In this document: piece by piece, positions 15,099 to 53,327 of the stretch | Numbering within the stretch: the stretch's first letter is position 1 | How the letters are laid out: every line of letters begins with the position of its first letter | Source: Caballeronia sp. NK8 | Lineage (GTDB): Bacteria; Pseudomonadota; Gammaproteobacteria; Burkholderiales; Burkholderiaceae | Direction: 5' to 3' | DNA: 64,000 bases | Assembly: GCF_018408855.1 (NCBI RefSeq) | Contig: NZ_AP024327.1 | Span: 558,001-622,000, forward strand | The notes under the pieces: model-generated | Seen by the model: the letters and a program-made list of their open reading frames with translations, nothing else | Told to the model about the DNA's origin: nothing | The model's database searches: none | Made by a program: the position numbers and the translations under genes

Positions 15099-16922
15099 AT
15101 GACGCCCATCGTCTTTGGGGGGCGCTTCGGTTGGCTTCATGTCGGCCAGGGCAAGCAAGGGGTCGTGCTGTGCAACCCGTTCGGGCATGAAGAAGCGTGG
15201 GGGCACAAGGCCATGCGCTTTCTGGCCGAAGAGCTGTCGCGACGCGATATTCCGGTCCTGCGCTTCGACTATCTGGCCACGGGCGATTCGGTCGGCATCG
15301 ATCACGAAGGCGATCGGCTCGATGACTTCGTCGCGGATATCGGCGCGGCTGTCGATCGCTTGCGCAAGGAAACGGGCGTAACGAAGGTGACGTTGTGCGG
15401 CTTGCGTCTCGGCGGGACTCTGGCTGCGCTTGCATCGCACCATCCGCTCGTGGATTCGCTGGCGCTGCTGGCTCCCGTCCTCAACGGCCGTCACTATCTG
15501 CGCGAGCTGACAGCGTTGCGCAAGACGTGGGTCGAGAATCTTCCCGTCGTCGTGCGTGAGGGGCAGATCGATTCACCCTTTCACGTACTCGGGCAGGTCT
15601 ATAGCGAAGCGTTTCGCAACCGCCTGAGCGGGCTCGATCTCGGCAAGGCCATGAGCCGTCAGCCTGCCATGCCCAAGCGCGTATTCGTCGCCGATATGCG
15701 GCGCGGCGCGAGCCAGTCGCTATGCGTCGCACTGCGCGATCGAGGCGTCGAGGTCGAAACGGAAACCTTCGACGACTACTTCGATTTCATGCAGGAAACC
15801 GCATCGTCCACGTTGCCGGAAACGACGCTCAAGCGAACCGCCCAATGGATAGCGGACAGCATGAAGGAGAGCCGCGCCGACGATCTCGCATCGCTGCGCG
15901 CGAGAAAGGCCGCGCGGCCGGGCATGTGCGACGATGCGATCATCGAAACCCCGGAAGCGATCGAGCGCCCGGTGATCTTCGGCGCAGCGGGGCTCTTCGG
16001 CATCTTGTGCGAGCCGCGCGACCGGCTCGCGGGCGGCACGGTGATCGTCATCACGAATACCGCGGGCAGCGTGCATCATGGCGACAGTCGGCTGTCCGTG
16101 CGGATCGCGCGTGAAATGGCGCGGCGCGGCATCGCGTCGCTGCGCTTCGACGCGCGTGGCATTGGCGACAGTCCGGCGCGATCGCCTGACGGCACGCTGG
16201 ACACCACGGCGACGATTCACGCGGAAAGCACGATCGAAGATGTCGGGACCGCGGCCGCATGGCTCAAGCGCAAAGGCTACGATACCGTCGTCATGTTCGG
16301 CATCTGCTCGGGTGCGTACAGCGCGTTGCGGGCATCGCTCGTCGAACCGGCTATCGCGGCTGTCATCGCCGTGAATCTGCAGCGCTTCTATATTCCCGAA
16401 AGGATGACGCTGCAAGAGTTGCGAAACCAGCGGCGCAACACGATGGCGCGTCTCGGACCCGCGCTTCTGAAGCCAGCTAAATGGTGGCTGGTTCTAAGCG
16501 GCAAGCGCGGCCTCAAGCCGATCATCAAGGCGTTCGCCTCGAATGCGGCGGCGCGGCTGCATTCGCAGTTGTTCAGCGTCAAGGCCAAAAAAGTCGTGCA
16601 TACCGGCGAAACGTCGCTCACCGACCCGCACAGTGTGGTTCACGCGCTCGAACGCAAGGGCGTACGCACGCTGCTCGTGTATGGCGCGGGTGACGAGGGC
16701 CTCGATCAGCTCAATGCGCACTTCGGCAGGCACGGAAAGAAACTGTCGCGGATGACGAGAGTCAAGGCCGAGGTGTGTAAGGACGTCGATCACGCGCTCT
16801 ACGATACGCGCGCATTCGCCAGCGTGATTGCGCTGTCGGCGACGTTCATCAACGATCTGCAACCGAAGAGCGTGCCGGTGATGGAGCCTGTTTCACCGCT
16901 CGGGGTTTCGCAGCAGTTGTGA
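15099..16922 (+). CDS. Tandem alpha/beta hydrolase with atypical nucleophile elbows
   Basis: A 607-residue protein made of two alpha/beta-hydrolase domains, about 1-255 and 285-590. Each keeps the strand with DxxGxGxS-like geometry (RFDYLATGDSVG; RFDARGIGDSPAR). The first elbow reads GLRLG (101-105), with Arg at the nucleophile place, as in exosortase-A-associated hydrolases. The second reads GICSG (401-405), putting Cys403 there. A catalytic-His region DHALYD is seen near residue 570. So domain 1 is probably non-catalytic and domain 2 may use cysteine. No exosortase genes are visible. It ends before a strong terminator and appears monocistronic. Confidence 0.7.
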   Translation: MTPIVFGGRFGWLHVGQGKQGVVLCNPFGHEEAWGHKAMRFLAEELSRRDIPVLRFDYLATGDSVGIDHEGDRLDDFVADIGAAVDRLRKETGVTKVTLCGLRLGGTLAALASHHPLVDSLALLAPVLNGRHYLRELTALRKTWVENLPVVVREGQIDSPFHVLGQVYSEAFRNRLSGLDLGKAMSRQPAMPKRVFVADMRRGASQSLCVALRDRGVEVETETFDDYFDFMQETASSTLPETTLKRTAQWIADSMKESRADDLASLRARKAARPGMCDDAIIETPEAIERPVIFGAAGLFGILCEPRDRLAGGTVIVITNTAGSVHHGDSRLSVRIAREMARRGIASLRFDARGIGDSPARSPDGTLDTTATIHAESTIEDVGTAAAWLKRKGYDTVVMFGICSGAYSALRASLVEPAIAAVIAVNLQRFYIPERMTLQELRNQRRNTMARLGPALLKPAKWWLVLSGKRGLKPIIKAFASNAAARLHSQLFSVKAKKVVHTGETSLTDPHSVVHALERKGVRTLLVYGAGDEGLDQLNAHFGRHGKKLSRMTRVKAEVCKDVDHALYDTRAFASVIALSATFINDLQPKSVPVMEPVSPLGVSQQL

Positions 16923-16980: not shown

Positions 16981-17121
16981 TTTCTGATCCCGCAAATCGA
17001 CCCTGTCTGTCTTAAGCCGACAGCCCTCCGTATCCTGTCTCCCGTCATCCGACACATCGACTCCCGTCGAGCACCCGCGTATCGACTCAAAACTGCGCCA
17101 AGCGCAGATATTTTCTCTTGC

Positions 17122-17180
17122 AATCAATCTCTTAGATTAACCGAACAGATCTTCTAGCCCTGTCTGGCACGCCCCTCGCA
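17122..17180 (+). promoter_or_regulatory. Sigma-54 promoter module of peptide array A (IHF site, GATTAACCGAA box, -24/-12)
   Basis: The -24/-12 element TGGCACG-CCCC-TCGCA (17165-17180) has GG and GC exactly ten bases apart; the -12 half is TCGC rather than TTGC. Twenty bases from its start is the box GATTAACCGAA (17135-17145), directly preceded by a perfect IHF consensus AATCAATCTCTTA (17122-17134). The same order and spacing recurs before 28293 and 29014. Predicted start of transcription is about 17191, giving a 58-base leader. No activator gene is adjacent. Confidence 0.75.
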
Positions 17181-17248
17181 TATGTAGCTGCGAGCGCAAC
17201 GATTGGTGCTCAACCAACCACCAAACCAGATACCCCAGGAGCTACATC

Positions 17249-17506
17249 ATGTTGAAGATCGACAACCTCGCAGTCAGCAAAGAACTCGGCCGCGCTGAAA
17301 TGGGCGCCATCGTCGGCGGCGCGAGCATCTTCCAGAACAACGGCATCAACTCCAACTACAACGGCGGCTTCTCGTTCGCCAGCCCGCAAACGAACGTCGC
17401 TCCCGTGACGCAAGTCGACGCTTCGCAACACACCGACGTCGACGTGAAGAACATCACCAAGTCGCTCGCTTCGGTCGGCAGCCTGCTCGGCGGCGTGGCG
17501 CTCTAA
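17249..17506 (+). CDS. Double-glycine leader peptide, copy A1
   Basis: An 85-residue small protein. Residues 1-24 form a leader ending AEMGAIVGG with Glu at -8, Met at -7, Ile at -4, Gly-Gly at -2/-1 and Leu at -12, the ComC/bacteriocin pattern cleaved by C39-peptidase ABC exporters. The predicted 61-residue secreted part starts ASIFQNNGINSN, lacks cysteine, is rich in Asn, Ser, Thr and Val, and ends in a hydrophobic SVGSLLGGVAL tail. The SD is AGGAG nine bases upstream. It is the first of three genes in a 296-bp tandem array under a sigma-54 promoter. Function is not recognised; bacteriocin, signal or matrix peptide are all possible. The protein is identical to copy B1. Confidence 0.8.
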   Translation: MLKIDNLAVSKELGRAEMGAIVGGASIFQNNGINSNYNGGFSFASPQTNVAPVTQVDASQHTDVDVKNITKSLASVGSLLGGVAL

Positions 17507-17544
17507 ACCCTCATCCATTCATTCAAGTCCTCAGGAGAACCATC

Positions 17545-17802
17545 ATGTTGAAGATCGACAACCTCGCAGTCAGCAAAGAACTCGGCCGTGCAGAAATGGG
17601 CGCCATCGTCGGCGGCGCGAGCATCTTCCAGAACAACGGCATCAACTCCAACTACAACGGCGGCTTCTCGTTCGCCAGCCCGCAAACCAACGTCGCTCCG
17701 GTGACGCAAGTCGATGCCTCGACGCACACGAACGTCGATCTGACGAACATCACGAAGTCGCTGACGTCGGTTGGCAGCGTGCTCGAAGGCGTGAAGCTCT
17801 AA
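17545..17802 (+). CDS. Double-glycine leader peptide, copy A2
   Basis: This copy has the same leader and first core segment as A1. The tail differs: STHTNVDLTNITKSLTSVGSVLEGVKL replaces the A1 version, so charge is altered and Gly-Gly near the end becomes Glu-Gly. It follows A1 by 38 bases, with its own AGGAG ribosome site, and the A1-to-A2 start distance is exactly 296 bases. The protein is identical to copy B2. Confidence 0.8.
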   Translation: MLKIDNLAVSKELGRAEMGAIVGGASIFQNNGINSNYNGGFSFASPQTNVAPVTQVDASTHTNVDLTNITKSLTSVGSVLEGVKL

Positions 17803-17840
17803 ACCCTCATCCATCCATTCAAGTCATCCGGAGAACCATC

Positions 17841-18098
17841 ATGTTGAAGATCGACAACCTCGCAGTCAGCAAAGAACTCGGCCGTGCAGAAATGGGCGCT
17901 ATCGTCGGCGGCGCGAGCATCTTCCAGAACAACGGCATCAACTCCAACTACAACGGCGGCTTCTCGTTCGCCAGCCCGCAAACGAACGTCGCTCCCGTGA
18001 CGCAAGTCGATGCTTCGCAACACACCGACGTCGACGTGAAGAACATCACGAAGTCGCTCGACGCTGTCGGCAGCCTGCTCGGCGGCGTGAAGCTGTAA
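17841..18098 (+). CDS. Double-glycine leader peptide, copy A3
   Basis: Last gene of array A. Leader and core resemble A1; the tail reads SLDAVGSLLGGVKL. It begins 296 bases after A2 with the ribosome site CCGGAGAACC. A hairpin terminator follows 13 bases after the stop. The protein is identical to copy B3, and the few nucleotide differences between them are synonymous. Confidence 0.8.
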   Translation: MLKIDNLAVSKELGRAEMGAIVGGASIFQNNGINSNYNGGFSFASPQTNVAPVTQVDASQHTDVDVKNITKSLDAVGSLLGGVKL

Positions 18099-18110
18099 GC
18101 GTTACCCCGC

Positions 18111-18148
18111 GAAGGGAGAGGGAGCAACATTGTCTCCTTCTCCCCTTC
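18111..18148 (+). terminator. Hairpin terminator after array A
   Basis: GAAGGGAGAGGGAG pairs with CTCCTTCTCCCCTTC around a 9-base loop, with one G-T wobble. It has no long T-tract but sits directly after copy A3, in the same position as the hairpins after copies B0 and B4. Confidence 0.65.
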
Positions 18149-18257
18149 ATCGAAGGTCCTCTCTCTGAATTTTCCGGCCCTCGCGCGCAATGCGCGGATC
18201 TACGCGGCCACCGTTTCCTTCCGTTTCGAAATCCGACGCCTCAGGGCAATCGCCTAG

Positions 18258-18328
18258 TTGACAGCGTCATTTTTGACTCCCTACACTGCATACATCGCTG
18301 CACACATTTAAATACGCAAACATGTGTG
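18258..18328 (+). promoter_or_regulatory. Promoter and candidate operator of the hydroxyproline operon
   Basis: TTGACA (18258-18263) and TACACT (18282-18287) are spaced by 18 bases and fit a sigma-70 promoter. Just downstream, CACACAT (18301-18307) and ATGTGTG (18322-18328) form an inverted repeat, a plausible operator for the GntR repressor encoded at the end of the operon. The first gene starts at 18379. Confidence 0.45.
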
Positions 18329-18378
18329 GTGCAAATTCCGATGTCATATGCGGGTTTACTCTTATTCGGGAGTCGATC

Positions 18379-19212
18379 ATGGTTCAGTTGTCCCGTTTCA
18401 CCCTTCGTGCTGTCGCGTGCCTGGCATTTGTCGGCTTGGCGGCCGCCCATACGCCCGTTCGGGCCGAAGACGGCAGTGCCTGGCAAAGCGTGAAGAAGGC
18501 TGGCGTGCTTCGTTGCGGTGCCGCGGTCGCGCCGCCGTACGTGATGCGCGACCCGAAGACGGGCGATTACAGCGGCTTCTTTTCGGAGTTGTGCCGCAAC
18601 TTCGGGCAGAACGTACTGAAGGTGAAGGTCGAGTTCGTCGATACGACATGGGACAACATCGTCGCCGGCCTGCAATCGGACAAGTGGGATCTGTCGATGG
18701 CGCTGAATCAGACACCGGAGCGCGAAAAAGCGGTCTCGTTTTCGACGCCCGCGACGGACTACAACGTGTCGTTTGTCTATAACAAGAACAACCCGAAGAT
18801 CCCCAAGGGCGCGCGCAGCATCGCCGACATCGACAAGCCGGGCGTGACAGTCGCCGTGATGTCGGGCGCGGCGCAGGACAAGGCGATCACGGCGACATTG
18901 AAGCAGGCGCGCATCATGCGGCTGCCGGGCAACGACGAAACCCGCCTCGCGCTGATGTCGAAGCGCGCCGATCTTCTCGCCGATGCCAACATCACCAACA
19001 TGCTCCTGACCGAGGCGCATCCCGACTGGGCCGCGACGGTCCAGCCGAGTCCGCCACTCGCGCAACAGGAAGTCGCGTTCGGCGTGCGCAAGGAAACCTC
19101 CGCCGCCGATCTCGCCGTGCTCAACGATTTCGTGAACTCGCAAGTCAGAACGGGCGCTGTCGACAAACTCATCAAGACGTCTGTCCAGGCGATGCTGGTC
19201 GCAAACAAGTGA
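18379..19212 (+). CDS. Amino-acid ABC transporter substrate-binding protein (family 3)
   Basis: A 277-residue periplasmic protein. A Sec signal of about 28 residues (LRAVACLAFVGLAAAHTPVRA) precedes the family 3 binding fold, which starts KKAGVLRCGAAVAPPYVMRDPKTGDYSGF and includes DLSMALNQTPEREKAVSFSTPATDY. The start at 18379 has GGGAG upstream; the frame is open further 5' without a ribosome site. It is the first gene of a ten-gene operon of transport, hydroxyproline catabolism and regulation, so hydroxyproline or proline isomers are the probable ligand. Two hairpins follow before the ATPase gene, as is common after abundant binding proteins. Confidence 0.85.
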   Translation: MVQLSRFTLRAVACLAFVGLAAAHTPVRAEDGSAWQSVKKAGVLRCGAAVAPPYVMRDPKTGDYSGFFSELCRNFGQNVLKVKVEFVDTTWDNIVAGLQSDKWDLSMALNQTPEREKAVSFSTPATDYNVSFVYNKNNPKIPKGARSIADIDKPGVTVAVMSGAAQDKAITATLKQARIMRLPGNDETRLALMSKRADLLADANITNMLLTEAHPDWAATVQPSPPLAQQEVAFGVRKETSAADLAVLNDFVNSQVRTGAVDKLIKTSVQAMLVANK

Positions 19213-19235
19213 TGTAACGCGCCAATTCGCGCCGT

Positions 19236-19287
19236 GTTCGATTCTCTTCGAACAGGATACCTAAGCATCGCGCGCTCTTTAGCGCGC
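19236..19287 (+). promoter_or_regulatory. Intercistronic hairpins after the binding-protein gene
   Basis: GTTCGA/TCGAAC (19236-19253) and GCGCGCT/AGCGCGC (19270-19287, 4-base loop) lie in the 91-base gap between SBP and ATPase genes. Such stems usually protect the upstream mRNA or partly terminate, raising the SBP:ATPase ratio. Confidence 0.5.
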
Positions 19288-19303
19288 TTGCTGGAGAGAT
19301 TTC

Positions 19304-20137
19304 ATGCTGTCATCGCAAACCATGATCGCTCAACACGACGTTCCGCCGGCGGTGATCGACTTTTCGCCTTCGACATCCGGCGAGTTCGTGCAATTCAGTG
19401 ATGTCTACAAGTCCTATGGCGAGAATCTGGTCGTCATGGATCACATGAACCTCGACATGCGCGAGGACGACCGCCTCGTCATCATCGGCCCGAGCGGCAG
19501 CGGCAAGAGTTCGCTACTGCGCGTCATGATGGGACTCGAAGGCATTCAGGGCGGACAAATCGGGTTTCAGGGCAAGCCGTATATCTTCGGCGCCGACGCG
19601 GGACGCGCGAAGCGTATCGACGCGAAGCTGCAAAAGCAGATCGGCATGGTGTTTCAGCACTACACGCTGTTTCCGCATCTGTCCGTGCTGGGCAATCTGA
19701 TTCTCGCGCCGGTCAAGGTGGGCGGCCTCTCGAAAGCCGAAGCGACCGAGCGCGCGCGCCTGTATCTCGCGCGGCTCGGTCTCGAAAGCAAGTTGCACGC
19801 ATATCCGAGCCAGCTTTCGGGCGGCCAGAAGCAGCGCGTCGCGATTGCCCGCGCACTGATGCTCGAACCGAAGCTGATGCTGTTCGACGAAGTCACCTCC
19901 GCGCTCGATCCGGAGATGGTCATCGAAGTCCAGAACGTGATGCTCCAGCTCGCCGAACAGAAGATGGCGATGATCATCGTCACGCACGACATGCACTTCG
20001 CCCGCGATATCGCCACGCGCGTGGTGTTCTGCGCGAGCGGCAAGATCGTGGAACAGGGCGCGCCCGCCGACATGTTCAAGTGCCCGAAGCAGGCTCGCAC
20101 GCGCGAGTTCCTCGAGAAAGTGCTGCATCTCGACTGA
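19304..20137 (+). CDS. Amino-acid ABC transporter ATP-binding protein
   Basis: A 277-residue cytoplasmic ATPase of the polar amino acid (GlnQ/HisP) class. Walker A is GPSGSGKSS, the Q-loop is MVFQHYTLFPH, the ABC signature LSGGQKQRVAIARAL, and Walker B LMLFDEVTSALDPE, followed by the H-loop IVTHDMHFARDI. An N-terminal extension of about 30 residues before the core is slightly longer than usual. GGAGAG lies upstream of the ATG. It works with the two permeases that follow directly. Confidence 0.9.
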   Translation: MLSSQTMIAQHDVPPAVIDFSPSTSGEFVQFSDVYKSYGENLVVMDHMNLDMREDDRLVIIGPSGSGKSSLLRVMMGLEGIQGGQIGFQGKPYIFGADAGRAKRIDAKLQKQIGMVFQHYTLFPHLSVLGNLILAPVKVGGLSKAEATERARLYLARLGLESKLHAYPSQLSGGQKQRVAIARALMLEPKLMLFDEVTSALDPEMVIEVQNVMLQLAEQKMAMIIVTHDMHFARDIATRVVFCASGKIVEQGAPADMFKCPKQARTREFLEKVLHLD

Positions 20138-20145
20138 GGCTCGAC

Positions 20146-20817
20146 ATGAACTATCAATTCGATTTCCGCTTTCTCGAAGGCAGCTTCGGCGCCCTGCTCG
20201 ATGGCCTCCGGGTCACGATCGAACTGGCCGCCGCATCGAACCTCATGGGCCTCGTGCTCGGCTTCGCGCTCTGTCTTCTGGCGATGAGCCGCTGGACGAT
20301 CGTGCGCTGGCCGGCGCAGTTGTTCATCGAATTTTTCCGCTGCACGCCGGCGCTCCTGCAGATCGTCTGGTTCTTCTACTGCGTGCCGATGATGGTCGAC
20401 GTATTCATCGACCCGATCCTGATGGGCGTGCTCGCGCTCGGGCTCAATCTCACCGCATTCAATGCGGAAGCCTACCGCGCGGGCGTGCAGGCCGTGCCGA
20501 AGGAGCATCTCGACGCCTGCGTCGCGCTCGGTCTCAAGCCCTGGCAGCGCACGATGTATGTGGTCCTGCCGCAGGCGCTGCGCACCGCGATGCCCGTGCT
20601 GATGACCAACGGCATCGGCAGTCTGCAGCAGAGCGCGCTCGTCGCCATCGTCGCGGTGGCGGACCTGATGTATGTGGGCAAGAGCCTCGCGACCGAAGCG
20701 TATCGGCCGCTCGAAACCTACACCGTCGTCGCGCTGATCTATTTCGCGCTGTCCCTGCCGATCGCGAAGCTCGTCCATGTGATCGAGCGCCGCCAGGACC
20801 TCGCGGTCGAGCGTTGA
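20146..20817 (+). CDS. Amino-acid ABC transporter permease 1
   Basis: A 223-residue HisM/GlnP-type permease with about five membrane helices. The EAA loop that contacts the ATPase reads EAYRAGVQAVPKEHLDACVALGL. The start at 20146 (MNYQFDF) lies eight bases after the ATPase stop; the frame is open upstream inside the ATPase gene. It pairs with the permease at 20828 to form the channel. Confidence 0.88.
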   Translation: MNYQFDFRFLEGSFGALLDGLRVTIELAAASNLMGLVLGFALCLLAMSRWTIVRWPAQLFIEFFRCTPALLQIVWFFYCVPMMVDVFIDPILMGVLALGLNLTAFNAEAYRAGVQAVPKEHLDACVALGLKPWQRTMYVVLPQALRTAMPVLMTNGIGSLQQSALVAIVAVADLMYVGKSLATEAYRPLETYTVVALIYFALSLPIAKLVHVIERRQDLAVER

Positions 20818-20827
20818 GGAGAGGACC

Positions 20828-21493
20828 ATGCAACTCGACTTTTCCGCCGTTTTCCCCTACTGGCTCGTGCTGCTCAAGGGGCTTGCATTGACCATCGCGT
20901 TCACCGGCAGTTGCGCCGTGATCGGCAGTCTCGCGGGCTTCGTGCTGAGCCTGTTGCGCATGTCGCCCTCGCGCTGGATGAAAGCGGCGACCACGCTCTA
21001 TGTGGAGTTCTTTCGCGGCACGCCGCTGTTGATTCAGCTCTTCTGGGTGTTCTTCTGTTTCCCGGTCGTCTTTCACCTTCCGCTTCCGCCGTATGTGTCG
21101 GTCGTGATCTCGTTGACGCTCTACATGGCGGCGATCACCAGCGAAACGTTTCGCGGCGCGCTCAAATCGATCTCCGCCGAACAGCACGACGCCTGCATCG
21201 CGCTGAGTCTCTCGCCGCAGGCCAAGATTCTTTATGTGATCTTCCCGCAAGCGCTGCTGCGCGCGATTCCGCCGCTGCTATCCAACGTCGTCAGCCTGTT
21301 CAAGGAAAGCGCGCTGATCTCCTCGGTGGGCGTCGCGGACCTGATGTTCGTCGGCCAGAACATCTCGAACAGCACGGCCAAGCCGGTGGAGTTCCTGACG
21401 ACCGTTGCGATCATTTACTTCCTCGTCGCTTTTCCGCTCACGCGTCTCGTCGGCGTGGTCGAGATGCGATTGCTCAGGCGTTACGCCTACTAA
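20828..21493 (+). CDS. Amino-acid ABC transporter permease 2
   Basis: A 221-residue permease of the same family, starting ten bases after permease 1 with a GAGGAGAGG ribosome site. Its EAA loop is ETFRGALKSISAEQHDACIALSL. The arrangement of SBP, ATPase and two permeases gives a full polar amino acid importer feeding the enzymes encoded downstream. Confidence 0.88.
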   Translation: MQLDFSAVFPYWLVLLKGLALTIAFTGSCAVIGSLAGFVLSLLRMSPSRWMKAATTLYVEFFRGTPLLIQLFWVFFCFPVVFHLPLPPYVSVVISLTLYMAAITSETFRGALKSISAEQHDACIALSLSPQAKILYVIFPQALLRAIPPLLSNVVSLFKESALISSVGVADLMFVGQNISNSTAKPVEFLTTVAIIYFLVAFPLTRLVGVVEMRLLRRYAY

Positions 21494-21529
21494 CCCCAAT
21501 CAACGACTCATCGTTCAATGGAGCAACTC

Positions 21530-22408
21530 ATGCAGATGAAAGGCATTCTTCCCGCACTCGTCACGCCGTTCGGCAGTTCCGGCGCGGTCGATCACGACAC
21601 GCTCGCGAACCTCGTCGAATTTCAGTTGAAGGCCGGCGTCAAGGGCTTCGTGCCGCTCGGCTCGACGGGCGAATACTACGCGCTCACCCACGACGAGCGC
21701 CGCGCGATCCTGAAGACCGTGCGCGAAGTCGTCGGCGAGCGCGGGATGCTGATCGGCGGCGCGAACGGATCGTGCACGCGCGAGGTCATCGAACAGACGC
21801 AACTGGTTCGCGACGCGGGCTACAAGACCGTTCTCATCGCGCCGCCGTACTACGCGCTGCCGTCGCAACAGGAACTGATCGGCCATTACGACGCGATTCT
21901 CAAGGCGGTGCCGGACGCCGATCTCGTGCTGTACAACTATCCCGTGCGCACGAACGTGGAAGTCGGCTTCGAAGTGCTCGAAGCGTTCAAGGACCACCCG
22001 CGCGTGGTCGGCATCAAGGAAAGCAGCGGCAATCTGCTGCGCGCGATCGAAATCGGCGAGAAGTACAAGGATCACTATCAGCTTTCCTGCGGCTCCGACG
22101 ACCAGGCGCTCGACTTCTTCCTGTGGGGCGCGTCGAGCTGGATCTGCGGTCCCGCAAACTGCTTCGTGAAGCACGTCGTGGACTTCCATGCCAGGTTCGA
22201 GTCAGGCGACATTCGCGGCGCGCAGGACGTGATGCGCTCGCTCTTCCCCGTCATGGCGACGATGGAATCCGGCAAGTTCGTGCAGAAGGTGAAGTACGGG
22301 TGCGAACTCGCGGGCTTCAAGGTCGGGGCCGCGCGCATGCCGCTGCAGCCGCTCACGGATGACGAGAAGGCGGCGTTCCGCGAGGTGTTCGAAGCGGCGC
22401 AAGGTTGA
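21530..22408 (+). CDS. DHDPS-family lyase, probable pyrroline-4-hydroxy-2-carboxylate deaminase
   Basis: A 292-residue TIM-barrel class I aldolase of the DapA/NanA family. It has the GSTGE motif (44-48), catalytic Tyr135 in LYNYPVRT and Schiff-base Lys163 in [10 protein letters not shown]. In hydroxyproline clusters this family converts 1-pyrroline-4-hydroxy-2-carboxylate to 2-oxoglutarate semialdehyde and ammonia, and the neighbours fit that role rather than lysine synthesis. The start at 21530 is preferred because TGGAG lies six bases upstream; an in-frame ATG at 21518 lacks one. Confidence 0.8.
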
Positions 22409-22430
22409 CGATATCGAGCGGGGCATCCGG

Positions 22431-23447
22431 ATGAGCACACATCACTTCAAGAGCATCGAAGGACATACCGAGGGCATGCCGGTACGCATGGTGATCGACG
22501 GCGCGCCGCCGCTTGCCGGCGCGACCATGGAAGCGCGTCGCAAGGCGTTCGTCGAGCATCACGACTGGATTCGCCGCGCGCTGATGCTGGAGCCGCGCGG
22601 GCACGCGCACATGTCGGGCACGCTGCTCTATCCGCCCATTTCCGTCGACGCGGACATGAGCCTGCTGTTCATCGAAACGTCGGGCTGCCTGCCGATGTGC
22701 GGCCATGCATCGATCGGCTCGGTGTCCTTCGCGCTCGAAGCGGGGCTCGTGCGGCCGAAGTCGCCGGGCACGGTCATCGTCGACGTGCCCGCCGGCAAGC
22801 TCACCGCGAAGGTCGAGATGGACGGCGCGCGCGTGTCATCGGTGCGCTTCACCAACGTGCCGGGCTTCCTGCTTCACCGCGATGTCGAGATCGTGCATCC
22901 GCATTTCGGCGCGCTTGCCGTCGATATCGCGTACGGCGGAAACTTCTATCCGATCGTCGAGGTGCAACCGAATTTCCCGGGCTGCGAGCACTTCACGCCG
23001 GATCAACTGCTGGCCTGGGGCCGGCAGATGCAAACGGCCGTGAACGCTACGATCGACGTGATTCATCCGGATCATCCGGGCATACGCGGCGTGAATCACA
23101 CGATGTGGACAGGCGCGCCCATGTCGAATGACGCCGATGCGCGCGCGGTCGTCATCGCAGGTGACAGTCTTGTCGATCGTTCGCCGTGCGGGACCGGTAC
23201 CTCGGCCCGCGTCGCGCAACGGCACGCGCGCGGGCTGCTCGATATCGGTCAGGCGTTCCGTCATCAAAGCCTGATCGGCAGCTGTTTCATCGGACGGGTC
23301 GAATCGACGACGAAACTCACGAACGGTCTCGACGCCGTTCTGCCCAGCGTCGAAGGCCGCGCGTGGCTGACCGGGCGCGCGGAGTATTACGTCGATGACG
23401 CGCAGCCCTACGCTCATGGCTTCAGCTTGCAGGAGTATGTGAAGTGA
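22431..23447 (+). CDS. 4-hydroxyproline 2-epimerase (proline racemase family, Cys/Cys)
   Basis: A 338-residue cytosolic ProR-superfamily enzyme. Both catalytic cysteines are present: Cys90 in PMCGHAS and Cys253 in DRSPCGTGT. The His after the first Cys (MCGH) is the usual hydroxyproline epimerase signature. It should interconvert trans-4-hydroxy-L-proline and cis-4-hydroxy-D-proline, the first catabolic step. The start at 22431 follows the previous stop by 22 bases. Its stop overlaps the GTG of the oxidase as GTGA, coupling the two consecutive enzymes. Confidence 0.85.
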
Positions 23448-24736
23448 ACGCCGTTCCTCGCGAAGTCTCCGCGCACCATCCGCTCCCTTTCAGCCAGGAA
23501 ACCGCCGTGGTGATCGGCGGCGGCATCGTCGGACTGTGCTGCGCGCTCTATCTGCAACGCGGCGGTTACGCCGTCACGCTGATCGACCCGCAAGCGCCGG
23601 GCAACAGCACGGCCAAATGGAGCTGCGGCCAGATGGCGGTGAGCGAGATCATTCCGCTGTCGAAGCCCGGCATTCTGATGAAGATACCCGGCTGGCTCAT
23701 GGATCAGAAGGGTCCGCTCGCGCTGCGTCCGCGCGCGCTGCCGGGCATCGTCCCGTGGTTTCTCCGCTTTCTCATGTGCGCGCGGCACGCGAAGATCGTC
23801 GAGATCGCGCAGTCGATGGCCACGCTCACGCACGACGTCTATAGCGACTACGCGCCGCTGCTCGACGCCTGCGCCGACAAGACGTTGCTCGGCGAACGCC
23901 CCGTTCTCGAAGTCTTCGACGATCCTGTCGCGCTGACGCGCGAAGCGCCGCATCTCGCGCTGCGCGAATCGCTCGGCTTCAAGTCGCAGCGGCTGAATGC
24001 GAAAGACATCGGCGATCTCGAACCGGCGCTCGCGGGCAAGTTCTCGCATGGCGTCATGTTCGACGACTGGCGCGCCGTGAAAGACACGATGGGCTTCCTT
24101 ACCGCGCTGACCGATAGCTTCATCGCGCAAGGCGGACGGCGCGTGGAAAGCGAAGCGCGCCGCATCGACGAATCGAACGGACAGGCGACCGGCGTCACGC
24201 TCGCCAACGGCGAACGGCTGGCTGCACGGCATGTCGTCGTGGCCGCGGGCACCGGCGCGCGGCGCTTCTTCGATTCGCTCGGCGTGAACGTGCCCCTCGC
24301 GGGCATCGCGGGTTATCAGGCGGTCGTGTCGGACCCGGGCGTCGAGATTCGCCATTCGGTCATCTATGCGGACGGCGGCTTCTGCTTCACGCCGATGACG
24401 CGCGGGCTGCAGATCGGCGGCACGATCGAATTCGCGGGACACGGCGCGAAGCCCAACTTCGGGCGCGCGGAGATCATCCTCGAGAAGGCGAAGCGCGTAT
24501 TGCCCGGGATGCGCGCGACGCAGGTCGAGTACGGCGTCGGCTATCGGCCATTCATGCCCGACACGAAGCCCGTCATCGACCGCTCGCGCAGGCTCGGCAA
24601 TGTGTACATGGCGTTCGGTCACGGCCAGCTCGGACTCACGCTCGGCGCGACCACCGGGCGGCTGATCGCGGACATGGTCGCGGGTCGCGCGACAAAGCAA
24701 AACCTCGCGCCGTTCAGCGCCTATCGCTTTTCCTGA
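23444..24736 (+). CDS. FAD-dependent D-hydroxyproline oxidase/dehydrogenase (DadA-like)
   Basis: A 430-residue D-amino-acid dehydrogenase-type flavoprotein, with GTG as start. The Rossmann dinucleotide motif is [27 protein letters not shown] (about 22-48). A conserved C-terminal FAD/substrate segment reads [42 protein letters not shown]. In this cluster it should oxidise cis-4-hydroxy-D-proline to 1-pyrroline-4-hydroxy-2-carboxylate, passing electrons to the respiratory chain or oxygen. No separate small electron-transfer subunits are encoded, so it is the single-subunit type. Confidence 0.82.
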
Positions 24737-24748
24737 CGAGACGAATTC

Positions 24749-26230
24749 ATGAAATCGTATGAACAACTTTTCATCGACGGACGCTGGGTCGCACCCGTCA
24801 GGGCCGGCCGCTTCGACACCATCGATCCGAGTAACGAGGAAGTCATTGCGAGCGTGGCGGCGGCGACGGCCGAGGATATCGATATCGCGGTGAAGGCCGC
24901 GCGCAAGGCCTTCGACGAAGGCCCGTGGCCGCGCATGCGCGGCGCCGAGCGCGCGGCCGTGTTGCGCCGTATCGGCAAGGGCATTCGCGAACGTCTTCAG
25001 GAACTCGCGGAAATCGAAGTGCGCGACAACGGCAAGCCGCTTGCCGAAGCGCTCTGGGATCTGGGCGATGCCGCCGGTTGCTTCGAGTACTACGCCGGTC
25101 TCGCGGAGAAGCTCGATGAGCACGCGGAAACGCCCATCGCACTCTCCGACGACCGTTTCAGCTCGGTCGCGCGCAAGGAGCCGGTCGGCGTCGCGGGCGC
25201 GATCATTCCGTGGAATTTCCCGATGCTGATGGCCGCGTGGAAAGTCGCGCCTGCGCTGGCCGCAGGCTGCACGATGGTTCTGAAGCCCTCGGAGCTGACG
25301 CCGCTCACGGCGCTCGAACTCGCCGGCATCGCCGCGAACGCGGATCTGCCGCCGGGCGTGCTCAATGTCGTGACGGGATTCGGCCATGACGCGGGCGCGC
25401 CCTTGAGCGAGCATCCGGGCATCGACAAGCTCGCGTTCACCGGCAGCGTGCCGACCGGCAGCCGCATCATGCAGGCCGCCGCGCGCGACATCAAGAACGT
25501 GAGTCTCGAACTGGGCGGCAAGTCGCCGTTCATCGTCTTCGATGACAGCGATATCGATGCGGCCGTCGAATGGATCATGTTCGGCATCTTCTGGAATCAG
25601 GGCGAAGTGTGTTCGGCCACGTCGCGCGTGCTCGTGCAGCGCGGCATCCATGACCGGCTGGTGGATCGGCTGAAAGAGGAAACGCGCAGGATCACCATCG
25701 GCAATGGACTTCAGGACGGTGTGCTGCTCGGCCCGCTCGTCAGCAAGGGGCAATACGACAAGGTGCGTGAAGCCGTCGAGCGCGGCGTGAGCGAAGGCGC
25801 GCGCCTCGTCACGGGCGGCGGACGGCCCGCGCATCTCGACAAGGGCTACTTCATGGAACCCGTCGTGTTCGCGGACGTGCCCGCCGATAGCTGGATCTGG
25901 AACGAAGAGATTTTCGGGCCGGTCGTGTGCATCCGTGCTTTCGATGAGGAATCCGAAGCCGTTCGGTATGCCAACGATTCCCGCTTTGGTCTTGCAGCGG
26001 CCGTGATGTCGCGCAATCTCGCACGCTGCGAGCGTGTCGCGCGGGCGTTGCGCGCGGGCATCGTGTGGATCAATTGCAGCCAGCCGACTTTCACCGAAGC
26101 GCCGTGGGGCGGCTACAAGCAAAGCGGCATCGGCCGCGAACTCGGCGAGTGGGGTTTGAACAACTATCTCGAGACCAAGCAGATCACGCGCTACGACAGC
26201 GACAAGCCGTGGGGCTGGTACATCAAATAA
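24749..26230 (+). CDS. Aldehyde dehydrogenase, probable 2-oxoglutarate semialdehyde dehydrogenase
   Basis: A 493-residue NAD(P)-dependent aldehyde dehydrogenase. The cofactor site includes IIPWNFPM, the general-base Glu254 is in SLELGGKSP, and the nucleophile Cys288 in NQGEVCSA. Overall it looks closest to betaine/gamma-aminobutyraldehyde-type ALDHs, but its position after the deaminase and oxidase implies oxidation of 2-oxoglutarate semialdehyde to 2-oxoglutarate, the final step of hydroxyproline degradation. It begins 12 bases after the oxidase stop. Confidence 0.82.
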   Translation: MKSYEQLFIDGRWVAPVRAGRFDTIDPSNEEVIASVAAATAEDIDIAVKAARKAFDEGPWPRMRGAERAAVLRRIGKGIRERLQELAEIEVRDNGKPLAEALWDLGDAAGCFEYYAGLAEKLDEHAETPIALSDDRFSSVARKEPVGVAGAIIPWNFPMLMAAWKVAPALAAGCTMVLKPSELTPLTALELAGIAANADLPPGVLNVVTGFGHDAGAPLSEHPGIDKLAFTGSVPTGSRIMQAAARDIKNVSLELGGKSPFIVFDDSDIDAAVEWIMFGIFWNQGEVCSATSRVLVQRGIHDRLVDRLKEETRRITIGNGLQDGVLLGPLVSKGQYDKVREAVERGVSEGARLVTGGGRPAHLDKGYFMEPVVFADVPADSWIWNEEIFGPVVCIRAFDEESEAVRYANDSRFGLAAAVMSRNLARCERVARALRAGIVWINCSQPTFTEAPWGGYKQSGIGRELGEWGLNNYLETKQITRYDSDKPWGWYIK

Positions 26231-26241
26231 GGCCAACGACC

Positions 26242-27273
26242 ATGCGCTGGAAAAAGACGCTTCAACTCGTCGACGTGCATTGCGAAGGCGAAATCGGCAA
26301 GGTGATCACCGGAGGTGTCATCGGCATTCCGGGCGAAACCATGCTCGACAAGATGAACTACATCAACGAAGTGGACGACAGCCTGCGCCGGCTCGTCACG
26401 CTGGAGCCGCGCGGCTGTCTGCAGATGTCGGTGAATCTATTGCTTGCGCCGACGAAACCCGAAGCGCATGCGGGGTTCATCGTGCTGCAATCGGACAAGG
26501 CGCATCCGATGTCCGGCAGCAACGCGATCTGCGTCGTCACCGCGTTACTCGAACTCGGCATGGTCGAGATGCGCGAGCCGGAAACGACCGTCGTGCTCGA
26601 CACGCCCGCGGGACTCGTCACCGCGCGCGCGTCCTGCAAGGACGGACGCTGCACGGGTGTGTCACTGGACATGGTGCCCGCGTTCGTCGAGCAACTGGAT
26701 GTGAATGTCGAGACCGCGCGCTTCGGGACGATCAAGGCGGACATCGCGTTCGGCGGCGTGTATTACGCGCTGATCGATGTCGACCAGGTCGGGCTCGCGA
26801 TCGCGCCCGAGCACGCGCGCGAGCTTGCCGAGCTGGGGGTCGCGCTGAAGGACATCATCAACGGGCAGATTCGCGTTCGGCATCCGCTCTTTCCGCAGAT
26901 CGACGAAGTCGCCTATGTCATGTTCCGCAATCGCCTCGGCGACGCGCTGTATCAGACCTGCACGACGCTGCCTCCGGGACGCGTCGATCGATCGCCGTGC
27001 GGCACCGGCAGTTCGGCCAATCTCGCGGCCTTGGCGGCGCGCGGACTGGTCGATGTCGGCAGCCGGCTGACATCGCGTTCGACCATCGGCGGCGAATTCG
27101 AAGTCGAATTGCTCGGCAAGACCGAAGTCGGCGGCAAACCGGCCGTGCTGCCGCGCATTCGCGGGCGCGCGTGGGTGTACGGATTCCAGCAGATCGGCGT
27201 CGATCCCGACGATCCGCTCGCCGCCGGTTTCATGCTGAGCGATACTTGGGGCACCGGCTTCCCGGCCGCCTGA
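26242..27273 (+). CDS. Proline racemase-family paralog with Ser/Cys pair (probable trans-3-hydroxy-L-proline dehydratase)
   Basis: A 343-residue second ProR-superfamily enzyme. The first catalytic residue is Ser91 (HPMSGSN) instead of Cys, while Cys253 is kept in DRSPCGTGS. In the superfamily a Ser/Cys pair is reported for enzymes with trans-3-hydroxyproline dehydratase and some 4-hydroxyproline epimerase activity. Substrate range is inferred only. A dehydratase product (pyrroline-2-carboxylate) would need a reductase, and none is seen in the window. The start at 26242 follows the ALDH gene by 11 bases. Confidence 0.78.
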   Translation: MRWKKTLQLVDVHCEGEIGKVITGGVIGIPGETMLDKMNYINEVDDSLRRLVTLEPRGCLQMSVNLLLAPTKPEAHAGFIVLQSDKAHPMSGSNAICVVTALLELGMVEMREPETTVVLDTPAGLVTARASCKDGRCTGVSLDMVPAFVEQLDVNVETARFGTIKADIAFGGVYYALIDVDQVGLAIAPEHARELAELGVALKDIINGQIRVRHPLFPQIDEVAYVMFRNRLGDALYQTCTTLPPGRVDRSPCGTGSSANLAALAARGLVDVGSRLTSRSTIGGEFEVELLGKTEVGGKPAVLPRIRGRAWVYGFQQIGVDPDDPLAAGFMLSDTWGTGFPAA

Positions 27274-27345
27274 GACGGAGCGCGCACGATGATAAACTTG
27301 AACGCGCGCCCGTCTTTCCGGGCCCACGACGACGGCGGTGAATAC

Positions 27346-28053
27346 ATGAGCAAAGGGACCACGGAGACCGAGAACGGTCCTCGCCGGCATGGCGGACGGT
27401 ACATCTACGAAGCGTTGCGCAAGCAGATCCTGACCTTGCAACTCAAACCGGGCGCACCGCTCGACGAAGTCTCGCTGGCGGCGCAATTCGGGCTGTCCCG
27501 CTCGCCCGTGCGCGATGCGCTCGCGCGTCTCATCAGCGAAGGGCTGGTCACGATCCTGCCTAACCGCACGACGCTCGTCACGCCGTTCGAAATCGAGGAG
27601 TTCCCGAAATACGTGTCGGCGCTGGACCTCATCCAGCGCGCGGTCACGCGTCTTGCGGCGCTGCATCGGAGCGAGGCCGATCTCGCGCGCATCCGCAAAG
27701 CCGACGACACCTACATGCAGGCCATCGACAGCGGCGATTTCAATGCGATGTCCGAGACCAACAAGGCCCTGCACATGGCCATCGCGCATGCGGCGAACAA
27801 CCCGTATTTCCTCGGCTATTACGAGCGCCTCCTCGGCGAGGGGCAGCGTCTGCTGCATCTGCATTTCGATTACACCGTGACATCGCCGTCGGCGACGAAA
27901 CTGGGCCGCGATCACGCCGACATCATCGATGCGATCGCACGCCGGGACGCGGACGCCGCGGAGAAACTCGCGCACGAACACACGATGCTGTTCCAGAAGC
28001 GCTTCCTCGACTACATGCGGCAAAACATGACTGAGTCGATGGCGATTCTGTAG
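27346..28053 (+). CDS. GntR-family (FadR subgroup) regulator of the operon
   Basis: About 235 residues: a winged helix (YIYEALRKQILTLQLKPGAPLDEVSLAAQFGLSRSPVRDALARLISEGLVTILPNR) followed by an all-helical FCD ligand domain with the metal-binding His pattern (HMAIAHAANN, DHADIIDAI). It is last in the operon and likely autoregulates it in response to a hydroxyproline intermediate, perhaps through the inverted repeat near 18301-18328. The start is ambiguous: ATG 27289 has GGAG eight bases upstream and would add 19 residues. Confidence 0.8.
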   Translation: MSKGTTETENGPRRHGGRYIYEALRKQILTLQLKPGAPLDEVSLAAQFGLSRSPVRDALARLISEGLVTILPNRTTLVTPFEIEEFPKYVSALDLIQRAVTRLAALHRSEADLARIRKADDTYMQAIDSGDFNAMSETNKALHMAIAHAANNPYFLGYYERLLGEGQRLLHLHFDYTVTSPSATKLGRDHADIIDAIARRDADAAEKLAHEHTMLFQKRFLDYMRQNMTESMAIL

Positions 28054-28172
28054 CCTGTCTGCGGTGCACCGACACGTCTTCGCCGGTTGTCTTCCGACGC
28101 CCAACGGATCGAACGAGCCAGCGCCGCGCGATTTGCCCGAAATTCGTTCAGCCATGTTTTATTTGCCTTGAA

Positions 28173-28231
28173 CTTCAACGAGTTGGATTAACCGAAGTGT
28201 TCCTCCAGATACGGCTGGCACGGCCCTCGCA
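28173..28231 (+). promoter_or_regulatory. Sigma-54 promoter module of singleton peptide gene B0
   Basis: TGGCACG-GCCC-TCGCA (28216-28231) keeps the GG-N10-GC spacing. GATTAACCGAA is at 28186-28196, again 20 bases from the -24 GG-containing motif, preceded by a degenerate IHF-like CTTCAACGAGTTG (28173-28185). Conservation of the box where surrounding bases differ argues that it is functional. Confidence 0.72.
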
Positions 28232-28292
28232 TATAGAGATGCGAGCGCAACGATTGGTGCTCATCCAACCAACCAAGTCCAGGAGACACATC

Positions 28293-28550
28293 ATGCTGAA
28301 GATCGACAACCTCGCCGTTAGCAAAGAACTCGGCCGCGCAGAAATGGGCGCCATCGTCGGCGGCGCGAGCATCTTCCAGAACAACGGCATCAACTCCAAC
28401 GCCGTGAGCGGCTTCTCGTTCGCCAGCCCGCAGACCAACGTCGCGCCGGTGACGCAAGTCGATGCCTCGACCCACACGAACGTCGATCTGACGAACGTCA
28501 CGAAGACGCTCGCTTCGGTCGGCAGCCTGATCGAAGGCGCGAAGCTGTAA
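28293..28550 (+). CDS. Double-glycine leader peptide, copy B0 (singleton)
   Basis: An 85-residue paralog with the same 24-residue leader but a divergent core: NAVSGFSF replaces NYNGGFSF, and the tail is TNVTKTLASVGSLIEGAKL. It has its own sigma-54 promoter module and a strong terminator, so it is a separate transcription unit between the hydroxyproline operon and array B. The start at 28293 has AGGAGAC upstream; the frame is open further 5' but the leader alignment fixes the start. Confidence 0.8.
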   Translation: MLKIDNLAVSKELGRAEMGAIVGGASIFQNNGINSNAVSGFSFASPQTNVAPVTQVDASTHTNVDLTNVTKTLASVGSLIEGAKL

Positions 28551-28563
28551 AGCATCGTCCTCG

Positions 28564-28608
28564 AAGGGGAGAAGGAACCGCGCTGGTTCCTTCTCCCCTT
28601 TTCTTTTT
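28564..28608 (+). terminator. Rho-independent terminator after copy B0
   Basis: A perfect 16-bp stem (AAGGGGAGAAGGAACC with its complement), a 5-base loop and a T-rich run (TTCTTTTT). The rest of the 28551-29013 gap holds the array B promoter and no convincing gene. Confidence 0.92.
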
Positions 28609-28886
28609 CCTCTGCTGCACATCCCCTTTCCTTCTGCTGTTCTTCTGCCCGCTTCGGTTTGGCGGCGCGTCCGCATCATTTCTTCATCATTCCGGATACC
28701 GAAGCATTTTCGAGTTTCGTCGTGCGATCTCGTGTGGCTTTGTCTTCCTGCCGTGGTCCGATCGTGCATGTTCGTCATCATCCGACACCATCCGGTTTTC
28801 TGTTGTTCGTCGACCAACACCTCGCGCAGACGAAACCGCCTCAAACGGCCGTGAAATCCGCATCGCTCAACTTTATTTCGCTTGAA

Positions 28887-28945
28887 AATCAATACACTAG
28901 ATTAACCGAACCGATTTTCCACCCGCGCCTGGCACGCCCCTCGCA
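28887..28945 (+). promoter_or_regulatory. Sigma-54 promoter module of peptide array B
   Basis: TGGCACG-CCCC-TCGCA at 28930-28945, GATTAACCGAA at 28900-28910 and an IHF-like AATCAATACACTA (one mismatch) at 28887-28899. Order and spacing are identical to those before array A. The first gene starts at 29014, the same 70 bases from the -12 C as in array A. Confidence 0.75.
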
Positions 28946-29013
28946 TATGTAGCTGCGAGCGCAACGAAAGATGCTCAACCAACCACCAAACCAGATATCC
29001 CAGGAGCTACATC

Positions 29014-29271
29014 ATGTTGAAGATCGACAACCTCGCAGTCAGCAAAGAACTCGGCCGCGCAGAAATGGGCGCCATCGTCGGCGGCGCGAGCATCTTCCAG
29101 AACAACGGCATCAACTCCAACTACAACGGCGGCTTCTCCTTCGCCAGCCCGCAAACCAACGTCGCTCCGGTGACGCAAGTCGATGCTTCGCAACACACCG
29201 ACGTCGACGTGAAGAACATCACCAAGTCGCTCGCTTCGGTCGGCAGCCTGCTCGGCGGCGTGGCGCTCTAA
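29014..29271 (+). CDS. Double-glycine leader peptide, copy B1
   Basis: First gene of array B, protein-identical to A1. Five nucleotide differences from A1 were found by eye, all synonymous. SD AGGAG precedes the ATG, and the leader region upstream is also nearly the same as that of A1. Confidence 0.8.
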   Translation: MLKIDNLAVSKELGRAEMGAIVGGASIFQNNGINSNYNGGFSFASPQTNVAPVTQVDASQHTDVDVKNITKSLASVGSLLGGVAL

Positions 29272-29309
29272 ACCCTCATCCATTCATTCAAGTCCTCAGG
29301 AGAACCATC

Positions 29310-29567
29310 ATGTTGAAGATCGACAACCTCGCAGTCAGCAAAGAACTCGGCCGTGCAGAAATGGGCGCTATCGTCGGCGGCGCGAGCATCTTCCAGAACA
29401 ACGGCATCAACTCCAACTACAACGGCGGCTTCTCGTTCGCCAGCCCGCAAACGAACGTCGCTCCCGTGACGCAAGTCGATGCCTCGACGCACACGAACGT
29501 CGATCTGACGAACATCACGAAGTCGCTGACGTCGGTTGGCAGCGTGCTCGAAGGCGTGAAGCTCTAA
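29310..29567 (+). CDS. Double-glycine leader peptide, copy B2
   Basis: Protein-identical to A2 (tail SLTSVGSVLEGVKL), 296 bases after B1. Three synonymous nucleotide differences from A2 were found by eye. The 38-base spacer and the AGGAG site are conserved. Confidence 0.8.
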   Translation: MLKIDNLAVSKELGRAEMGAIVGGASIFQNNGINSNYNGGFSFASPQTNVAPVTQVDASTHTNVDLTNITKSLTSVGSVLEGVKL

Positions 29568-29605
29568 ACCCTCATCCATCCATTCAAGTCATCCGGAGAA
29601 CCATC

Positions 29606-29863
29606 ATGTTGAAGATCGACAACCTCGCAGTCAGCAAAGAACTCGGCCGTGCAGAAATGGGCGCTATCGTCGGCGGCGCGAGCATCTTCCAGAACAACGG
29701 CATCAACTCCAACTACAACGGCGGCTTCTCGTTCGCCAGCCCGCAGACCAACGTCGCTCCGGTGACGCAAGTCGATGCCTCGCAACACACCGACGTCGAC
29801 GTGAAGAACATCACGAAGTCGCTCGACGCTGTCGGCAGCCTGCTCGGCGGCGTGAAGCTCTAA
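29606..29863 (+). CDS. Double-glycine leader peptide, copy B3
   Basis: Protein-identical to A3 (tail SLDAVGSLLGGVKL), 296 bases after B2. About five synonymous differences from A3. Unlike A3 it is not the last gene; the usual spacer leads to B4. Confidence 0.8.
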   Translation: MLKIDNLAVSKELGRAEMGAIVGGASIFQNNGINSNYNGGFSFASPQTNVAPVTQVDASQHTDVDVKNITKSLDAVGSLLGGVKL

Positions 29864-29901
29864 ACCCTCATCCATTCATTCAAGTCATCCGGAGAACCAT
29901 C

Positions 29902-30159
29902 ATGTTGAAAATCGACAACCTCGCAGTCAGCAAAGAACTCGGTCGCGCAGAAATGGGTGCCATCGTCGGCGGCGCGAGCATCTTCCAGAACAACGGCATC
30001 AACTCCAACTCGGTGAGCGGCTTCTCGTTCGCCAGCCCGCAAATCAACGTCGCACCGGTGACTCAGGTCGACGCATCGCAATACACGAAGGTCGATCTGA
30101 CGAACGTCACGAAATCGATCGATGCCATCGGCAGCCTCCTGCATGGCGTGAAGGCCTAA
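29902..30159 (+). CDS. Double-glycine leader peptide, copy B4
   Basis: Last and most divergent member of array B. The leader is unchanged, but the core carries NSVSGFSF, ASPQINV, QYTKVDLTNVTKSIDAIGSLLHGVKA. It resembles B0 in the SVSG/AVSG segment, suggesting B0 and B4 represent an older flanking set into which the A1-A3-like block was copied or from which it expanded. Confidence 0.8.
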   Translation: MLKIDNLAVSKELGRAEMGAIVGGASIFQNNGINSNSVSGFSFASPQINVAPVTQVDASQYTKVDLTNVTKSIDAIGSLLHGVKA

Positions 30160-30204: not shown

Positions 30205-30329
30205 CTCACGAATCACTTGTCTCGACACCATTAAATAACAAGCTGCTTGAAAGTCGACGTAAGTAGTGATATCGCTTTGCGGACATTCCATTCGGAATTC
30301 AATGAGTGACACTCCGCAGAGGTGATTCG

Positions 30330-53300: not shown

Positions 53301-53327
53301 GTGCTTTTCTCTCGTCGTGGGAATGCG

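Follow-up and report, generated by a model that had tools for sequence, protein, structure and literature searches.

Several described systems resemble, in one respect or another, the subject of this study, a family of eight 85-codon genes with an invariant double-glycine leader found in a 64,000-nucleotide stretch of the Caballeronia sp. NK8 genome (contig NZ_AP024327.1, positions 558,001 to 622,000; hereafter, the window). The substrates of peptidase-containing ABC transporters (PCATs) carry leaders with Leu at -12, Glu at -8, Met at -7, and Ile at -4 before a Gly-Gly site, and their C39-ABC exporters possess a Cys motif, features that recur here. The Cdz peptides of Caulobacter (CdzC and CdzD) are likewise 84 to 86 residues long, use type I export, and have leaders ending in a G-G/A/S site, as described in PMC5380434. 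HetC of Nostoc has the same domain order as the exporter proposed below, namely cyclic nucleotide (cNMP)-binding, C39, and ABC, a likeness that lies in the domain order, and PMC10986499 describes its substrate as unknown and possibly encoded elsewhere in the genome. NHLP/NHLM bacteriocin export models partially match our candidate exporter and its HlyD protein, but the scores fall under the curated cut-offs (553.8 vs 853.3 bits and 67.4 vs 156.2). Among the open-access papers listed in literature searches, none was recognisably devoted to the peptide family or to the exporter cluster, and the available portions of PMC3262810, PMC5867869, and PMC10809759 contain nothing on the peptide family.

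We propose that the window peptides are very probably exported, under RpoN-type control, by a cNMP-C39 exporter encoded on another contig of the genome (C2); support for a single exporter under RpoN control, with its substrates encoded in trans, is good but falls short of proof. According to this proposal, the eight genes would encode precursors of 61-residue cysteine-free peptides and would probably be transcribed by the sigma-54 (RpoN) RNA polymerase with the help of an enhancer-binding protein, which for the arrays may be the exporter cluster's own activator. The precursors would be cut after Gly-Gly by the C39 peptidase of the C2 exporter, and export would proceed through a tripartite type I system formed by this tandem-cNMP C39 ABC exporter, HlyD, and TolC, with a PpiC-type isomerase, an FHA protein, and a PP2C phosphatase as putative further parts. 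The same exporter may also handle additional leader-bearing candidate substrates, some adjoining it and others scattered through the genome.

By its leader, exporter, and linkage, this is, as far as sequence can tell, a PCAT-substrate system, with linkage found in three loci (L173, L174, and L178) and in 6/10 peptide-bearing genomes of two other genera, but not in its own genome or genus. It differs from described PCAT systems in that the exporter is encoded in trans in a Gram-negative tripartite setting with several candidate substrate families, the substrates are encoded in multi-copy arrays, and no immunity gene is seen at those arrays. Compared with HetC, the exporter has two cNMP stretches and is accompanied by HlyD, TolC, PpiC, FHA, PP2C, and a sigma-54 activator, and candidate substrates have been identified. 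The differences from Cdz are that the peptides are less hydrophobic, are present in many copies, and lack an extended glycine zipper, and that the arrays have neither an adjacent exporter nor a CdzI-like gene.

The preliminary description of this stretch had reported eight 85-residue genes with an invariant leader, and all of them are confirmed (Table 1). Residues 1 to 36 are identical in 8/8 genes, and the leader, LGRAEMGAIVGG, contains L-12, E-8, M-7, I-4, and GG in every one, as expected from the C39 rule. Among the eight genes, residues 37 to 39 and the tail vary while 25 to 36 are constant, also as described, and we further observed that residues 40 to 47 and 49 to 59 are identical, with T or I at residue 48. 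Since the copies are 77 to 100% identical to the reference copy over 300 nt, the family is not a product of chance. The ORF listing embeds the genes at 28293 and 29310 in longer ORFs (28197-28550 and 28971-29567). The genes do lie in tandem, but the two arrays originally described are better seen as three transcription units with three, one, and four genes (17249-18098, 28293-28550, and 29014-30159), because the gene at 28293 is 463 bp away from that at 29014 and both are preceded by promoter-like sites of their own. Intergenic gaps measure 38 bp within units and at least 463 bp between them, and the first array has been copied by segmental duplication (17233-18097 to 28998-29862). The predicted mature peptides of 61 residues contain no cysteine, which is absent from 65/65 unique 85-codon genes of the family, and Asn plus Gln account for 16 to 18% of the five distinct window peptides. 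For three of these five, comparison with Pfam and NCBIfam returned nothing at E values up to 1.

As the preliminary description had noted, no peptidase-transporter is adjacent: PF03412 matches three sites in the genome, all on other contigs and none in the window. The strongest match (C2:809339-812392) is a 1,019-residue protein with PF00027 (two cNMP-binding stretches), PF03412, PF00664, and PF00005 domains, and it is homologous by sequence to the ABC-type bacteriocin transporter 4ry2, which we take to be PCAT1, and to ComA (8hf4). Inspection by eye shows that its C39 domain contains DCGAACL, GYHYIII with its His, and VADPA with its Asp, the catalytic positions of such peptidases. The other two C39-type domains show, also by eye, DPGVAAL and DYGIAAL instead of the Cys motif, so that the C2 protein carries the only predicted C39 domain of the three with such a motif. 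The two degenerate exporters provide an alternative, namely that the peptides leave through one of these type I systems or stay uncleaved, but neither has the Cys motif, and in relatives it is the cNMP-C39 exporter to which the peptide genes are linked, which makes this alternative very improbable. Around the C2 exporter, Pfam and NCBIfam models identify a NodT/TolC-type outer-membrane protein, FHA, HlyD, a sigma-54 activator, a PP2C phosphatase, and a PpiC-type protein, the last resembling a peptide-maturation family at a score below the cut-off. Thus, the earlier suggestion that a dedicated exporter acts in trans is supported by the identification of the C2 exporter and backed by its neighbourhood in relatives and by co-occurrence.

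Within the NK8 genome, two leader peptides (C2:819123-819413 and C2:806220) flank the exporter cluster, one of 99 residues before the TolC gene and one of 108 residues before the PP2C gene. A profile built with the 99-residue peptide (A4) matches that peptide at E 6e-37, the 108-residue one at E 0.002, and the window genes at E 1.6e-4 to 0.0013, while its matches elsewhere in the genome cover the leader only. The overlap between the window and exporter-adjacent family profiles is similarly confined to the leader (hhalign: 32 columns, 96.5%, E 8.4e-10), and one locus (L039), judged by eye, joins an exporter-type leader to a window-type core. As export of the peptides is a prediction, one could still imagine a cytoplasmic family in which the GG motif serves another use; the leader rule, the linkage to the exporter, and the leader common to exporter-adjacent genes render this very improbable.

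Linkage between window-type genes and the exporter is visible in relatives. Close linkage was found in 3/67 loci, compared over flanks no longer than 10 kb. In these three, from Noviherbaspirillum (L173), Dechloromonas (L174), and an Oxalobacteraceae metagenome-assembled genome (L178), the window-type genes match the query from residue 2 to residues 63 to 70, and the nearest of them is 1.8 to 2.8 kb from an exporter that is 76 to 80% identical to the C2 protein. Three other loci (L158, L170, and L175) extend, near their ends, into further members of the exporter cluster. In addition, in two genera outside Caballeronia, the peptide gene and the exporter share one contig at a distance of about 10 to 21 kb in 6/10 peptide genomes (G116, G229, G234, G239, G257, and G302, with the peptide matched over residues 2-80 or more), while in the remaining four the peptide is on other contigs; one of the ten, G310, has a partial match.

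Co-occurrence points in the same direction. Among 299 genomes of the family, the exporter (E 1e-200; 104 genomes) was found in 27 of the 28 genomes with the peptide (E 1e-6), so that an absence of C39 exporters from all such genomes, named in the preliminary description as the finding that would speak against export, was not observed; it was found in 77 of the 271 without the peptide (Fisher p 7e-13). Within the genus, with thresholds of E 1e-30 or better for the peptide and at least 80% identity for the exporter, 20 of 58 genomes had the peptide, 42 the exporter (one of them partial), and 19 both (Fisher p 0.005). These p-values overstate the case, as related genomes are not independent and the searches scored at most 18 and 2 candidates per genome.

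Evidence for common control comes from upstream regions. All three window units have TGGCACG-N4-TCGCA 77 to 84 bp 5′ of the ATG, and two promoter patterns searched across the genome gave no copy beyond these units. With a scoring scheme built on the general sigma-54 consensus, sites scoring at least 13.5 occur in 80/99 window-type units (3/3 in the NK8 genome and 77/96 elsewhere), compared with 8/719 ORF upstream regions and 2.3% of 12,000 random places; many of the low-scoring units, which we still counted as misses, look array-internal. Considering units of any type, 89/92 of these sites are 72 to 90 bp before the start codon, and in exporter-adjacent units the first leader gene has a site scoring at least 14 in 9/9 examined. 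Farther upstream (185 to 270 bp), a CCRACA-N13/15-TGTYGG-like site with a score of at least 10 was found in 14/24 window-type, 8/9 exporter-adjacent, and 3/5 dispersed own-genome units, against a background of 4.5% of 3,600 windows. This enrichment is suggestive of a candidate activator site, in a motif that was first spotted by eye in exporter-adjacent units and whose region and spacers were fixed after viewing all units. The activator encoded in the exporter cluster would be the natural candidate for the regulator of the arrays.

A further element, TTAACCGAA, was seen shortly upstream of each window sigma-54-like site (around 17137-17145, 28190-28200, and 28900-28912), about 28 bp from the promoter in unit 1; it is common to the window units and L075, that is, to 4/14 sites compared. 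Other leader-bearing families were also noticed. One of 64 to 74 residues with an arginine/proline-rich core (R-[IV]-V-x-Y-P type) recurs near the exporter cluster (at 2186 on the minus strand in L111, and in L040, L043, L086, and L173), mostly without a promoter-like site of its own. Two 63-residue leader proteins in the NK8 assembly (G000:C1:478016 and G000:C5:713900; loci L109 and L110) have cores of the type GGHDVEKEKALVE..., and their genes have a CCAACA-N14-TGTCG-type site and a poor -12 box. Finally, two small signal-peptide-like proteins (AYIGYPNDGQTLPAGKPFKVWF and AYIIWPPDGAVISGGKLWVRMG) are encoded upstream of the exporter cluster in L013 (18753-19706, minus strand) and recur in L069, L072, and L088.

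Several observations weigh against export by the C2 protein under RpoN-type control. To begin with, cleavage and export are predicted steps, and the AlphaFold model of the peptide is uninformative, with a mean predicted local distance difference test score of 52.6 and no more than two helices, one in the leader and one at the C-terminus, both of low confidence. One genome of 3.9 Mb (G019) has a complete peptide gene with a promoter-like site and no cNMP-C39 exporter; its C39 match belongs to another kind of transporter, which is broken across two frames, and the possibility that this is a decayed copy of the C2-type exporter was rejected, given an identity of 28 to 37%. In Caballeronia, a full-length peptide gene lies on the exporter contig in 0/19 genomes with both, most of these assemblies being drafts. 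Regarding control, the -12 box of the window units is TCGC rather than the TTGC of the consensus, and the promoter is not universal, being present in 4/6 other GG-leader units of the NK8 genome and 8/23 elsewhere. The spacer of the candidate activator site is N13 in the window units but N14 at the exporter, and the site was found in only 1/9 relatives in two other genera, so a different activator is possible.

The sequences of the relatives tell us more about the peptide itself. The best named relatives are Caballeronia proteins, one C. pedi locus has 100% identity over 85 query residues, and the family is present in Caballeronia, Burkholderia, Cupriavidus, Noviherbaspirillum, and Dechloromonas, with up to eleven matches per genome. 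In the draft genomes G012, G018, G020, G023, and G037, contig ends truncate peptide matches. Assemblies can be expected to break at near-identical array copies, and copy numbers in these genomes are thus lower bounds. One window-type relative (L038; G014:C52:36957-37115) has an in-frame stop in a genome in which the exporter is present. For 65 unique ungapped 85-codon genes (those of 83, 84, 86, and 93 residues were left out), the ratio of nonsynonymous to synonymous substitution rates (dN/dS) is 0.13 in the leader, 0.38 in residues 25 to 36, 1.9 in the three codons 37 to 39, 0.05 in residues 40 to 59, and 0.48 in the tail. Residues 40 to 59 are therefore under the strongest constraint within the mature part, and the best-kept stretch, FASPxxxxAPVTQVDAS, is recognisable as far as Dechloromonas, as VVVAPVTQVDAS.

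The preliminary description had suggested a diversifying tail, an idea that finds no support as an adaptive feature, since positive selection on the tail was rejected (its dN/dS is 0.48, and only residues 37 to 39 exceed 1) and the tails form subtypes that go with the position in the array and are common to several species. For instance, the QY or SY...LLHGVK tail belongs to the last gene of the unit in 8/9 sources (60 genes), the ninth having a QY tail in a middle gene, and QHTDVD...GGVA tails are in first position in 11/15 genes. The common descent of the arrays accounts for some of this pattern, which is at odds with free diversification.

As for the role of the peptides, our first choice, still tentative, is an extracellular or surface structural peptide, because of the conserved core, the copy number, the ordered subtypes, and the lack of an immunity gene. 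A more elaborate and rather doubtful version is that we are looking at a new extracellular polymer of Betaproteobacteria, in which an RpoN-controlled HetC-like type I exporter would secrete small subunits with leaders, belonging to several families, and the ordered array subtypes ("first", "middle", and "last") would form a surface fibre or coat; if so, the tails would specify a place in the assembly and not evasion. Instead of a structural role, the same exporter could secrete peptides used in competition, that is, cell-surface or secreted bacteriocin-like products of the Cdz or class IIb type. In UniRef, some members of the family bear the name "Bacteriocin", one relative from Dechloromonas has a match to PF10439 below cut-off, a C-terminal helix is predicted with low confidence, and two small conserved proteins that begin with a hydrophobic, signal-peptide-like stretch are encoded beside an exporter-adjacent leader gene, but not beside the arrays. 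At the arrays, the sole transmembrane-like ORF is antisense to gene 4 and no immunity-type gene was otherwise seen, nor does a hydrophobic ORF recur beside window-type peptides in the ten loci compared (two of them overlapping). Class IIb bacteriocins are typically cationic, whereas the mature net charge is -1 in 51, 0 in 13, and -2 in 1 of the 65 genes, that is, -1 or 0 in 64/65, and never positive. Three of the five distinct window peptides gave no class II bacteriocin model of Pfam or NCBIfam above cut-off. Size and leader type do resemble those of CdzC and CdzD, of 86 and 84 residues and type I export, but Gly, Ala, Val, and Ile make up 36% of gene 1 compared with the 75% given for CdzC/D in PMC5380434. 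Two or more GxxxG motifs occur in only 2/140 relatives, and three of the five distinct window peptides have none. Given this, the strongly conserved core, and the lack of an immunity gene or glycine zipper at the arrays, we consider a bacteriocin unlikely.

A secreted signal addressed to other cells or to a host seems unlikely as well. A dedicated peptidase exporter, a conserved core, and RpoN-type control would suit such a peptide, and PMC10986499 presents the proposal that HetC, itself of the cNMP-C39-ABC type, exports a signal. Nevertheless, up to eleven copies per genome with distinct tails would be unusual for a signal, and no receptor recurred at peptide loci, a weak argument given that the comparison covered ORFs of 40 to 320 residues in ten loci.

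Table 1. Coordinates of the peptide genes, the duplicated block, and the upstream elements in the window
Feature	Position	Strand	Remarks
GG-leader peptide gene 1	17249..17506	+	85 aa (residues 1-24 leader, 25-85 mature part); first of unit 1
GG-leader peptide gene 2	17545..17802	+	unit 1
GG-leader peptide gene 3	17841..18098	+	unit 1, last gene
GG-leader peptide gene 4	28293..28550	+	unit 2, only gene
GG-leader peptide gene 5	29014..29271	+	first of unit 3; protein identical to that of gene 1
GG-leader peptide gene 6	29310..29567	+	unit 3; protein identical to that of gene 2
GG-leader peptide gene 7	29606..29863	+	unit 3; protein identical to that of gene 3
GG-leader peptide gene 8	29902..30159	+	last of unit 3; QY...LLHGVKA tail subtype
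Repeated block	17233..18097	+	copy at 28998-29862, 851/865 bases identical, 11,765 bp downstream
Sigma-54-like -24/-12 element TGGCACGCCCCTCGCA, unit 1	17165..17180	+	
Sigma-54-like element TGGCACGGCCCTCGCA, unit 2	28216..28231	+	
Sigma-54-like element TGGCACGCCCCTCGCA, unit 3	28930..28945	+	
Candidate activator site CCGACA-N13-TGTCTC, unit 1	17017..17041	+	putative
Candidate activator site CCGACA-N13-TGTCTT, unit 2	28069..28093	+	putative
Candidate activator site CCGACA-N13-TGTTGT, unit 3	28782..28806	+	putative

The genes around the arrays deserve a brief description. Between the near-identical array copies (18322-28053) lie genes for amino-acid ABC uptake, a protein of the dihydrodipicolinate synthase family, two proteins of the proline-racemase family, an FAD oxidoreductase, an aldehyde dehydrogenase, and a GntR regulator, a set that we take to serve hydroxyproline-type catabolism. 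Because array copies flank this set, recombination could delete or duplicate it, and homologues of much of it were also seen between arrays in L095. On the 5′ side, a 607-residue protein (15099-16922) consists of two alpha/beta-hydrolase halves that match exosortase-A-associated hydrolases 2 and 1 below cut-off; it was set aside as an array partner, being beside arrays at L094, L095, and L096 but not at the other array loci compared. Directly 3′ of the second array is an alkylsulfatase-type metallo-hydrolase (30306-32297; PF14863, PF14864, and PF00753). Farther downstream, homologues of 47457-53864, in which a sigma-54-activator-like ORF (47457-49262) was recognised by tblastn only, flank an array in L075, and part of this stretch does so in L098 and L099, which suggests that arrays occupy different sites of one neighbourhood across species.

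Because leader, promoter, and neighbourhood agree, a set of candidate substrates can be named genome-wide, from sequence, for an exporter with the domain order of HetC. Substrate choice, the role of the peptides, and control through the cNMP domains thus become directly testable in soil and insect-symbiont bacteria. Furthermore, although the peptides that we tested have no Pfam or NCBIfam model above cut-off, the family occurs in the five genera named above, and it would therefore represent a sizeable set of unannotated, probably secreted, peptides.

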